Assembly: GCA_025464625.1 (NCBI GenBank)
Contig: JAOAUZ010000002.1
Span: forward strand, 124,001-188,000
DNA length: 64,000 nucleotides
Source: Rickettsiales bacterium
Lineage (GTDB): Bacteria > Pseudomonadota > Alphaproteobacteria > Rickettsiales > SXRF01
Direction: 5' to 3'
Shown here: positions 21,528-63,725 of the stretch, piece by piece
Layout of the letters: each line of letters opens with the position of its first letter
Numbering within the stretch: the stretch's first letter is position 1
Made by a program: the position numbers and the translations under genes
Notes under the pieces: model-generated
The model's input: the letters and a program-made list of their open reading frames with translations, nothing else
Told to the model about the DNA's origin: nothing
Database searches by the model: none

Positions 21528-21549
21528 ACGTCATAGCGTATAGCAGATT

Positions 21550-21586
21550 ATAGTCATAATGTATAAAAATTATACATTATGACTAT
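21550..21586. promoter_or_regulatory. perfect 16-bp palindrome upstream of the histidine kinase
   Basis: Two perfect 16-base arms (21550-21565 and 21571-21586) are separated by AAAAT. The arms are AT-rich (TATACATTATGACTAT read on the right). It lies between the pilU stop and the kinase ATG. There is no T-run after it on either side, so it is more like an operator or mRNA hairpin than an intrinsic terminator. A second 10-base inverted repeat (21638-21647 with 21654-21663) lies nearer to pilU. Confidence 0.6.
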
Positions 21587-21691
21587 GAAAATCGAATCCG
21601 AAAGATCTATTTTCCGCTGCGAAGCGAGCGCAACCGAAGATAAGAACTATATGGTTCTTATCTGATATAAATAATATTAGAAAAAAATACT

Positions 21692-36171: not shown

Positions 36172-37116
36172 TTAGTTTATTACTGGAATGAAAAACCATC
36201 CGTCCAGCATCATAGCAGTAAATAGCACAAATAAATACAAAATAGAAAAGAGAAATGTTTTTCTTGACCACTTATCACCATCATCAATTAAAGTTTTATG
36301 CACATGGTACAAAAAAACTACATCAAGCAATAATGCACAAACTGTATAAATCATACCTGACCTAAATATTAACGGCAGCAACAAAGTGCAGCCAGTCAGA
36401 ATATAGGTATAAAACAACATCTGCCATTTTGTATATTTCGCTCCAGCAACTACAGGCATCATCGGCACACCAGCGCGAGCATAATCAGAATTTTTATATA
36501 GTGCCAACGCCCAGAAATGTGGTGGTGTCCACAGAAAAATAATCATGAATAATAAAAACGATTGTAGTGATACATCCCCTGTAACAGCAGCCCAACCAAT
36601 CATCGGCGGAAAAGCACCAGCCGCACCACCTATAACGATATTTTGCGGTGTACGTCGCTTGAGCAAAATTGTGTAAATAACCACATAAAAAAATATCGCA
36701 AAGGCAAGAATAAATGCCGCAACCCAATTCAGTGCCAACCCCATCAACATCACCGAAAGAGCGGAAAGAAATAACCCAAAAGCGAGTGCATCATCAGCTG
36801 CAATTACACCAGCAGGAATGGGACGATTTTTAGTGCGCGTCATAATCGCGTCAATATCACGATCATACCACATATTCATTGCCGCCCCCGCGCCAGAAGC
36901 AAGAGCGATGCAAGCAAGAGTTAGTAATTGCTGAAATAAATTTATGTGACCAAACCCACCAAGCAGCGCAACCATCATCCCCGCCAACCCAGTAAACACC
37001 ACCAGCGACATAACACCCGGTTTGAGCAGAGTGATGAAGTCACGGACAGTGGATGTAGGATGATTAGATGACGAGATAACAGGATAACAAGATAAAGGAA
37101 TGGTTACGGATTGCAT
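36172..37116 (-). CDS. ctaB: protoheme IX farnesyltransferase (heme O synthase)
   Basis: CtaB farnesylates heme B to heme O for cytochrome oxidase. The 314-residue UbiA-type membrane protein has the first Asp-rich motif NMWYDRDIDAIMTRTKNRPI and the second region NSDYARAGVPMMPVVAG, within eight or nine helices. The conserved protein begins only at about residue 24 (VRDFITLLKPGVMS). The residues before it, including IPLSCYPVISSSNHPTS, are encoded by a repeat element and no alternative start codon exists between them. No convincing ribosome-binding site precedes the ATG. It follows ctaD by 33 bases. Confidence 0.92.
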   Translation of the reverse strand: MQSVTIPLSCYPVISSSNHPTSTVRDFITLLKPGVMSLVVFTGLAGMMVALLGGFGHINLFQQLLTLACIALASGAGAAMNMWYDRDIDAIMTRTKNRPIPAGVIAADDALAFGLFLSALSVMLMGLALNWVAAFILAFAIFFYVVIYTILLKRRTPQNIVIGGAAGAFPPMIGWAAVTGDVSLQSFLLFMIIFLWTPPHFWALALYKNSDYARAGVPMMPVVAGAKYTKWQMLFYTYILTGCTLLLPLIFRSGMIYTVCALLLDVVFLYHVHKTLIDDGDKWSRKTFLFSILYLFVLFTAMMLDGWFFIPVIN

Positions 37117-37149
37117 CTTATCATCTCGTTATCTTATCATCACGTTATC
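37055..37149. repeat. GATAAC/AGAT imperfect palindromic repeat, partly in ctaB
   Basis: The region between the ctaD stop and ctaB, and the first 50 coding bases of ctaB, consist of repeated GATAAC, GATGAT and AGATGA units. Read on the minus strand, units such as GATAACGAGATGATAAG lie upstream of the ATG and their near reverse complement (CTGTTATCTCGTCATC) lies inside the gene, giving an imperfect palindrome. A similar structure precedes kdsA at 62811. Confidence 0.6.
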
Positions 37150-39620
<2,471 letters not shown>

Positions 39621-62172: not shown

Positions 62173-62266
62173 TTAAGTGAAACTTAGTGTTTGGTTTATT
62201 GTTGCTTAATGTTTGTATGGTTAAATAAACTACTGCCATACAAACATTATTCTCTTGGTTCACATT

Positions 62267-62812
62267 ATGAATATACAAATGAAAATTGAAAATTTTGGAG
62301 AACTACAGGCTCGTTACCAGATGCTGCCGATGGCTAACCGAGCATCGGCGGTAATTTCTGATTCCGAGCCAGTTCTTACTGCTGCGCAGCACATTCTAAC
62401 CAACCTGTCGAAGCAACCTAAATTGCAGCAGGCAATTTCTAATTTAAGAACCAATACAGCAACAATTTCTAGAATCCGTGTCTCTGAAGCAAAAACCGCA
62501 CTGCTGGATGATTCTGTCGATTTTATAAAGGTCGCCAGTCAAAAATTAGAGATATGGCGTAAAACACTAGAAAATATCGCAACAGGTGATGCGAAAGCCA
62601 CTCTTGTAAAGGACAAATTGCCAGAACATCATTCCGTTGCCAGTGGCAGCGGATATTTGTCTCTGATAAAATTGATTATCATGGAGCTATCCAGCATTGA
62701 TAAAGACAATACATCAACCTACGACTCCATGCTCACGGAAATTCGTCGCTGCACCACCATCCTCAGCGATTGCGAATGTGCCTCTGAATTAAATAATGTG
62801 GTATTGCATTAG
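62267..62812 (+). CDS. hypothetical protein
   Basis: A 181-residue, mainly helical, soluble protein with no recognised motif, signal peptide or membrane segment. It has a CDECAS-like DCECAS end and many Ser/Thr. Starts MNIQMKIENFGELQARYQML; an in-frame TTG at 62255 is possible but less likely. It stands between the glycoside-hydrolase gene and kdsA; the stop lies inside the repeat element that precedes kdsA. I cannot assign a function. Confidence 0.5.
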   Translation: MNIQMKIENFGELQARYQMLPMANRASAVISDSEPVLTAAQHILTNLSKQPKLQQAISNLRTNTATISRIRVSEAKTALLDDSVDFIKVASQKLEIWRKTLENIATGDAKATLVKDKLPEHHSVASGSGYLSLIKLIIMELSSIDKDNTSTYDSMLTEIRRCTTILSDCECASELNNVVLH

Positions 62813-62894
62813 ATAACTAGATGGCTTGATAACTAGATTACTAAGTGCTATTACACTTTGCTATAATCATGTCATCTTATTATCTAGTCATCTA
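62811..62894. repeat. GATAAC/AGAT imperfect palindromic repeat before kdsA
   Basis: AGATAACTAGATGG and TGATAACTAGATTAC on the left face TTATTATCTAGTCATCTA on the right as an imperfect inverted repeat of GATAAC and TAGAT units, ending at the kdsA ATG. It resembles the element within ctaB at 37055. No Shine-Dalgarno lies in front of kdsA. Confidence 0.6.
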
Positions 62895-63725
62895 ATGTCC
62901 ACTATCCGCCATATATCCGCAGGAAATGTAACTTTTGGTAATGATTTGCCTTTTGTCCTCATTGCTGGTCCATGCCAAGTAGAAACCCGCGACCATACGT
63001 TATTTATGGCAGAAAAGCTGATAGATATTGCTGGGAAACTTGATATCCCCTTTATCTATAAATCTTCTTATGACAAAGCCAATCGCACCAGTATTGGTGG
63101 AAAACGGGGCTTGGGATTGCTCAAAACCTTACCAATTTTTGAAGAAATCCGCCGTGATTTGGGAGTTGCTGTTCTTACTGATGTTCACACCGAAGAACAA
63201 TGCGAGATAGTCGCCCCTTATGTTGATATATTACAGATTCCTGCATTTTTGTGCCGTCAGACAGACATGCTCCTTGCCGCTGCAAAAACTGGGAAAGTCA
63301 TTAATATCAAAAAAGGGCAGTTTCTCGCTCCGTGGGACATGAAAAATGTTGTCGATAAGATGGATTATGCTGGTAACTCCAACGTTATACTCACCGAACG
63401 TGGTGTTAGTTTTGGCTATAACACTCTGGTCACTGATATGCGCGCACTACCTATTATGGCAGAAACTGGCTGTCCAATAGTAATAGATGCCACCCACAGC
63501 GTGCAACAACCTGGGGGACAGGGCAAAGCATCAGGCGGGGATCGGCGCTTCGTGCCGACTATTGCTAAAGCTGCTGTTGCAGTGGGTGTGGCTGGAGTAT
63601 TCATGGAAACCCACCAAGACCCAGACAACGCGCCATCCGACGGCCCTAACATGGTCAAGCTGGAAGATATGGAAACTCTGCTGAAGCAACTGAAAGAGTA
63701 CGATAAGATAGCCAAGGTTTTATAA
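62895..63725 (+). CDS. kdsA: 3-deoxy-8-phosphooctulonate (KDO-8-P) synthase
   Basis: KdsA condenses arabinose 5-phosphate and PEP to KDO-8-P for lipopolysaccharide. The 276-residue form has the class I/II DAHP-synthase fold with [45 protein letters not shown] and [20 protein letters not shown], and the C-terminal [17 protein letters not shown]. The open frame continues upstream through a repeat element ([12 protein letters not shown]) to a TTG at 62826; the ATG at 62895 gives the usual length. The lack of a ribosome-binding site makes the start uncertain. Confidence 0.93.

Follow-up and report, generated by a model that had tools for sequence, protein, structure and literature searches.

A Rickettsiales genome carries palindromes that are each built from head-to-head arrays of an 8-bp unit, GATRAYNN, and that lie in short gaps at gene starts. 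At the ctaD-ctaB junction one copy supplies the start codon and the first residues of heme o synthase (CtaB), which shows concretely how non-coding repeat DNA can come to encode the start and the N-terminus of a conserved enzyme. The palindromes are probably copies of a non-autonomous DNA element that is restricted to one bacterial family and is gained in short gaps at gene starts.

Two palindromes share one 8-bp unit

We analyzed a window of 64,000 nucleotides (G000:C5:124001-188000) from a 1.90-Mb genome in 7 contigs. The ctaB region and the kdsA region each contain an imperfect palindrome whose arms consist of one common 8-bp unit. The palindrome at the ctaD-ctaB junction occupies positions 37055-37153 (arms 37055-37093 and 37115-37153, 21-nt loop), and the one in the gap before kdsA occupies 62807-62897 (arms 62807-62840 and 62864-62897, 23-nt loop); as palindromes, neither is assigned to a strand. 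The general architecture is about 4-5 head-to-tail units, a loop, and an inverted set of units, spanning roughly 80 bp overall. When the window was scanned for palindromes, the ctaB element ranked first (score 22), and the kdsA element (score 18) tied for second along with two other hairpins; three Markov versions of the window, used as a control, gave maxima of 17, 15 and 15. When folded as single-stranded DNA, the ctaB element has a z-score of -3.34 (1 of 200 shuffles was as good) and the kdsA element -3.57 (0 of 200). At gathering score, tRNA was the sole Rfam match in the window, and neither element was matched.

The GATAAC hexamer by itself is frequent in the window (23 + 19 occurrences); the exceptional feature is the phased 8-bp array, not the lone hexamer. 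Arrays of three units with at most one mismatch match the genome 35 times, compared with 0 times for the reversed pattern, and the elements they mark lie at 10 places. This genome-wide search had been proposed in the initial annotation, which also took the repeats at ctaB and kdsA to be related. That view is borne out, because a single unit builds both palindromes. Elsewhere in the window, an intergenic gap contains an almost perfect 19-bp hairpin with a 3-nt loop (TTATAGTCATAATGTATAA, positions 21548-21588).

The element forms the 5' end of ctaB and fills the gap before kdsA

The element at the ctaD-ctaB junction overlaps the stop codon of ctaD together with the start and 5' codons of ctaB. 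The first unit comes immediately after the stop codon of ctaD (cytochrome c oxidase subunit I, 37150-38724, minus strand), and the ATG of ctaB (36172-37116, minus strand) lies at the loop edge, at 37114-37116. The second arm is translated in the ctaB open reading frame (ORF) as its first ~20 residues, MQSVTIPLSCYPVISSSNHP, and the match to TIGR01473 begins at residue 25. From this first ATG (37116-37114) to the conserved stretch KPGVM there is no further in-frame ATG, GTG or TTG, and judging from the sequence it is the sole usable ctaB start ahead of the conserved region. The earlier description of a translated repeat with the conserved protein beginning after it is thus correct. Replacement of the CtaB N-terminus would be tolerable because the N-termini ahead of the core are short and variable across the whole family. 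Relatives G001 and G003 carry the element at this junction in diverged form, each with its own ATG at the loop, and in G008 and G014 ctaD and ctaB are separated by 4 nt or overlap, with no palindrome. In another genus (G007), a GATRAY element lies directly behind the ctaD stop codon (L193:1-72) on a contig that ends within the element, and ctaB is elsewhere in that genome.

Before kdsA (3-deoxy-8-phosphooctulonate synthase, 62895-63725, plus strand), the upstream ORF (62255-62812, plus strand, no family match) ends inside the element, its TAG stop lying at the outer edge, and the element abuts the kdsA ATG. The kdsA orthologues in the same-genus genomes G001, G002 and G003 begin at the ATG equivalent to 62895-62897, directly after the element, and G001 carries this element in diverged form, its loop being similar. 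A longer kdsA frame through the element opens only from an internal TTG, and an N-terminal extension of KdsA is rejected on the basis of where the orthologues begin. The suggestion that the element had invaded the 5' coding end of kdsA therefore has to be dropped; it only fills the gap. We also reject conservation of a peptide between ctaB and kdsA, which had been seen as an echo of one peptide in the other. Since 8 and 3 are coprime, the frame returns after 24 nt, and every open frame through an inverted arm gives one and the same 8-residue cycle. The echo is a by-product of the unit, with no need for a common coding origin.

Both genes had been said to lack a ribosome-binding site, which holds for kdsA (anti-Shine-Dalgarno energy +0.8 kcal/mol) and not for ctaB, whose value of -3.5 is ordinary to weak (the mean of 341 ORFs is -3.03). 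Among 30 starts located within 30 nt of an element–a set that excludes dapA (52 nt), pdhA (106 nt) and elements with no clear start–13 are at a distance of -2 to 6 nt and the remainder at 12-28 nt. The 19 starts within 15 nt have weak anti-Shine-Dalgarno energies (mean -1.87, P = 0.09 versus the 341 ORFs), and the 11 starts at 16-28 nt retain strong ones (mean -5.06, P = 0.02). Loss of the Shine-Dalgarno sequence near elements is not significant as a general rule at P = 0.09.

Copies in this genome and its relatives

The 10 copies in this genome are located before metK, pth, a DUF3576 lipoprotein-like gene, motA, yebC, a glycosyltransferase gene, parE/pdhA, dapA, ctaB and kdsA. Seven are in co-directional gaps, three in divergent gaps and none in convergent gaps; nine lie between genes, one (ctaB) runs into a 5' coding end, and none is gene-internal. 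One further lone array match, inside a parB-like ORF, is probably due to chance. There is no obvious common pathway among the genes next to the elements.

Exact 3-unit arrays are present in 8 of the 16 genomes of the family (the relatives' named records being metagenome-assembled genomes), with 40 matches in G007, 16 in G002, 15 in the genome studied here (G000), 5 in G009, 2 each in G001 and G005, and 1 each in G013 and G015; in G005, G013 and G015, with their 1-2 matches each, no GATRAYNN palindrome was seen and none is claimed. None of the 39 genomes from elsewhere in the order has such an array. Of 384 other genomes in the class, only one shares the exact 4-unit array with this genome, and there the match is a simple GATAATTA repeat. 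Among the genomes searched, GATRAYNN palindromes are seen only in their own family.

We described the anatomy from 35 two-armed elements (10 from G000, 13 from G007, 8 from G002 and 4 from G009), leaving aside 3 of 38 copies that are single-armed or cut by a contig end. They have a median length of 83 bp and carry about 4.1 units in one arm and 4.6 in the other, and both unit number and loop vary. A profile of 155 unconditioned middle units, chosen solely by their neighbours, is G.96, A.98, T.95, [G.60 A.27 T.13], A.95, [C.65 T.26], N, [A.56 G.31]; position 4 is G, A or T and never C, position 6 is mostly C or T, and positions 7-8 are free or purine-rich. The two arms are equally good in their units (A at position 5 in 96/108 and 120/125 units, Y at position 6 in 93/108 and 102/125). 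They differ in coding capacity: reading inwards, stop codons occur in 195 of 210 frames through the first 32 nt and in 69 of 210 through the last 32 nt, compared with 39% for random window sequence. This asymmetry between left and right arms explains why a ctaB start within the element is tolerated.

Origin of the elements

Comparison of orthologous sites points to gain by copying. In G000 the metK element sits between a conserved leader and the Shine-Dalgarno sequence, and the site is empty in G002 and G003. The yebC element is present in G000 alone of four genomes, with an empty site in G001, G002 and G003. In G007, an identical 13-bp loop stretch occurs in two elements in opposite orientations, and these share 79 of 108 aligned bases, so from the empty sites and this copied loop we infer that copies have been gained by copying. 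Likewise, G009 and G007 each have an element before a histidine-phosphatase gene, and the two resemble each other. The metK leader itself (L002:1397-1460, also L213 and L217) is conserved and structured in three species (GGTGGGGATTTG...ACCACC...CTCAAATCCCC). It has no Rfam match at gathering score, and the SAM-II long loop model scores 19.5 bits (gathering 44) at the right place; the leader is possibly a divergent SAM riboswitch.

Copies within a genome are dissimilar. None of 157 same-genome element pairs reaches 85% identity over 60 bp, and 5 reach 80%. Most loops look unrelated, the mean score of 38 same-genome loop pairs being 6.7, compared with 6.1 after shuffling (maxima 17 and 12). Such low identity and seemingly unrelated loops are a poor fit to a recently active transposon. 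A MITE of a DDE transposase would have a fixed target-site duplication and conserved terminal repeats around related interiors; element ends are often TAGAT...ATCTA with variable right-hand flanks, in which no consistent TA target duplication was apparent by eye. The analysis found neither a transposase nor a target duplication nor a binding protein for the elements. In G001 the dapA copy no longer has a recognisable left arm.

These observations suggest the following scenario. The element would be acquired in short gaps, right after a stop codon and right before a start codon. In the first arm read inwards, the TAA or TGA in the unit stops nearly every frame and so ends reading from upstream, and the last arm is mostly open, allowing the downstream gene to start in the loop and read out through the arm. 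Translated copies may be tolerated because the unit gives stops going in and an open frame going out. A putative protein binding GATnAY arrays might serve either movement of the element or control of the downstream gene, and occasional copying of whole elements would be followed by fast change of everything except the GATnA core.

Conservation of that core is visible at five orthologous loci (dapA, the glycosyltransferase gene, pdhA, kdsA and the histidine-phosphatase gene), where unit positions 1, 2, 3 and 5 are the same in 152 of 189 comparisons, compared with 111 of 189 for the remaining positions (Fisher P = 7 x 10−6); these alignments were drawn to GAT matches, a possible bias, and core identity is only 80%. 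The core's persistence bears on a less likely account of the family, in which degenerate short-tandem-repeat palindromes arise in place by slipped-strand and hairpin-templated copying, with rare cross-seeding and no binding protein. Growth in place would readily account for the variable unit numbers and loops, for the other 6-7 bp unit families in the same genomes, for junctions that carry different units in different species, and for the single-arm copies between prs and rplY in G001 (G000 has none there) and at motA in G002. This account is harder to reconcile with one consensus, composed of fixed and free positions, that recurs at 10 unlinked sites in this genome and extends to three or more other lineages of genus level, or with a GATnA core that outlasts the other positions in orthologous copies.

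A probable constraint on the double-stranded unit

A rival reading, an mRNA-leader hairpin that regulates translation or stability as a REP-like structure or a translational operator, would require pairing between the arms to be under selection. Its attraction is that the single-strand folds of the ctaB and kdsA elements beat their shuffles and that elements lie within 30 nt of start codons, with the ctaB start codon at the loop. The pairing evidence makes this quite unlikely. Mismatches between the arms of the 27 co-directional elements are as often of the A-C type (49) as of the G-U type (46), among 596 matches, and an element's own arms match each other no better than they match arms of other elements in the same genome (mean match 17.1 versus 16.6, Wilcoxon P = 0.23). 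At variable positions, own arms match at 244 of 412 and other arms at 2127 of 3356. A simpler permutation did show an excess of pairing (0.59 versus 0.50, 0 of 2000 permutations), in a register that had been chosen to maximise matches, and we replaced it by the comparison of own and other arms. Moreover, 7 of the 35 elements occupy divergent gaps. Selection for an RNA hairpin is therefore not supported: the arms do not co-evolve and their mismatches have no G·U bias. Because there is neither this bias nor an excess of own-arm matches, because the arms are equally good in their units, and because the GATnA core outlasts the other positions, the sequences suggest that constraint acts on the double-stranded unit, most likely through a putative protein binding GATnAY arrays, and not on an RNA hairpin.

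Comparison with known repeats

We searched the literature at the level of titles and the beginnings of abstracts and found no description of a GATRAYNN palindrome family, which is not proof of its absence from print. The nearest descriptions are of TAACTGA heptamer arrays and of the heptamer hairpins of Nostoc trnL introns. As presented in the relevant portions of MacGregor (2015; PMC4679880), TAACTGA forms direct-repeat arrays in marine Beggiatoaceae, cyanobacteria and some Bacteroidetes. These are mostly intergenic, often a few nucleotides before a start codon, where they replace the Shine-Dalgarno sequence; the unit contains stop codons, the mobilising mechanism is described there as not known, and a protein-binding role is suggested. 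The GATRAYNN elements resemble them in having short, mostly intergenic tandem units at gene starts and stop codons in the unit, the closest 13 of the 30 starts mentioned above lying at -2 to 6 nt. They differ in their unit, which is 8 bp long, combines fixed with free positions, is almost always found in inverted pairs and is confined to an alphaproteobacterial family, whereas TAACTGA is a near-invariant 7-bp unit in direct repeats, with one indirect repeat reported in those portions (PMC4679880). The GATRAYNN elements are not TAACTGA direct repeats, their unit being an 8-bp one in inverted arrays. The stems of the P6b hairpin in the Nostoc trnL intron consist of heptanucleotides of Class I (TDNGATT) or Class II (NNTGAGT), according to the part of PMC4476775 that describes them. 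There, too, degenerate short units form both arms, and unrelated classes of unit swap at one site; those repeats lie within one intron and are given a structural role, whereas GATRAYNN elements are dispersed before protein genes, have an 8-bp unit in their main family and carry no sign of selection on pairing.

Repetitive extragenic palindromes (REPs) of the REP/RAYT type are also small and extragenic, but in PMC3733652 they are described as 20-40 bp long with GTAG/CGTC tags. The Y1_Tnp domain (PF01797) is absent (0 matches) from G000, G001, G003 and G007, the last having the most array matches; it is present only in G002 and G009 (2 of 16 family genomes) and in 5 of 14 control genomes. We thus rejected a RAYT transposase as the mover, as it is missing where copies are most numerous (G007).

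The initial annotation had likened the repeats to Rickettsia palindromic elements (RPEs), mobile elements that insert in frame into genes. Part of the likeness is real: RPEs are dispersed palindromes in Alphaproteobacteria, some translated with their host genes (PMC10969869, in the sections on them), and ours is a dispersed palindromic family with one copy translated at the CtaB N-terminus. Yet 9 of the 10 copies are between genes, none is gene-internal, and the kdsA element stops at the start codon, whereas in those sections many RPEs lie within ORFs. The median length is 83 bp, compared with ~150 bp for RPEs, and those sections of the review do not mention a tandem-unit architecture. Membership of the RPEs is not shown, and an element of that type is a highly improbable identity for the family; we file the GATRAYNN elements with short-unit repeat arrays at gene starts and not with RPEs or REPs, RPEs having been compared and set apart by description and not by sequence. 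Chance or an assembly artefact, finally, is negligible as an explanation, given 0 control matches and independent copies in separately assembled relatives.

Unrelated palindromes at the same gene junctions

A palindrome whose right arm lies in the ctaB ORF is present in seven of the nine genomes that have a ctaD-ctaB junction; G008 and G014 have none. In these seven, 0, 1, 1, 2, 0, 0 and 0 of 100 shuffles were as good, with G004 marginal (2/100). Their units, named by eye, differ among genera: GATRAY-like in one genus (G000, G001, G003), GTGCTGA-like heptamers in two others (G005, G015), GGC-type in a fourth (G004) and a non-tandem hairpin in a fifth (G006). Similarly, the rplY-pth gap has GATRAY units in G000, a TCATGAG-type in G001 and a GTGTCGG-type in G002 (0/100 shuffles each), and a weaker palindrome in G003 that is not significant (6/100). 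Outside the genus, the ctaD-ctaB palindrome reaches z >= 5 in 3 of 6 syntenic genomes, and in ordinary gaps z >= 4 is reached in 16/148, 7/133 and 5/129. The probability of at least 3 of 6 is 0.002 at a 5% baseline, 0.02 at 11% and 0.07 at 17%, in a comparison that was made post hoc.

This post hoc evidence for a ctaD-ctaB palindrome hotspot and for class switching is suggestive. It raises the tentative possibility that unrelated short-unit palindromes land or arise again and again at some gene junctions, with the architecture kept and the sequence replaced. If this is true, either the palindromes, selfish or self-templated, repeatedly rewrite protein N-termini, or a hairpin at the start codon is required at the junction, whatever its sequence. 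Should the pattern hold, such junctions would form a comparative system for how unrelated short-unit palindromes spread and cluster at translation starts, something still to be explained for the TAACTGA and Nostoc repeats.

In 464 kb sampled, a strict rule (which missed the ctaB element) found 5 tandem-unit palindromes of other families, compared with 0 in a Markov control. Palindromes made of other 7-bp units are located at L258:11017-11097, L252:10543-10625 and L245:19519-19593 (GAGTNTN, GTGRNNG and TTCGTAA types). G000 also contains longer intergenic palindromic repeats, at L247:11059-11200, L241:17936-18084, L241:11199-11381, L242:6939-7105 and L258:784-954, among which are the types GTCATTGCGAGCGAATGCGAAGCAATCC, GTCATTTCGAGTG...GAGAAATCTTTGC, GTCATCCCCGCGTAGGCGGGGATC and CCCTCTCCC.
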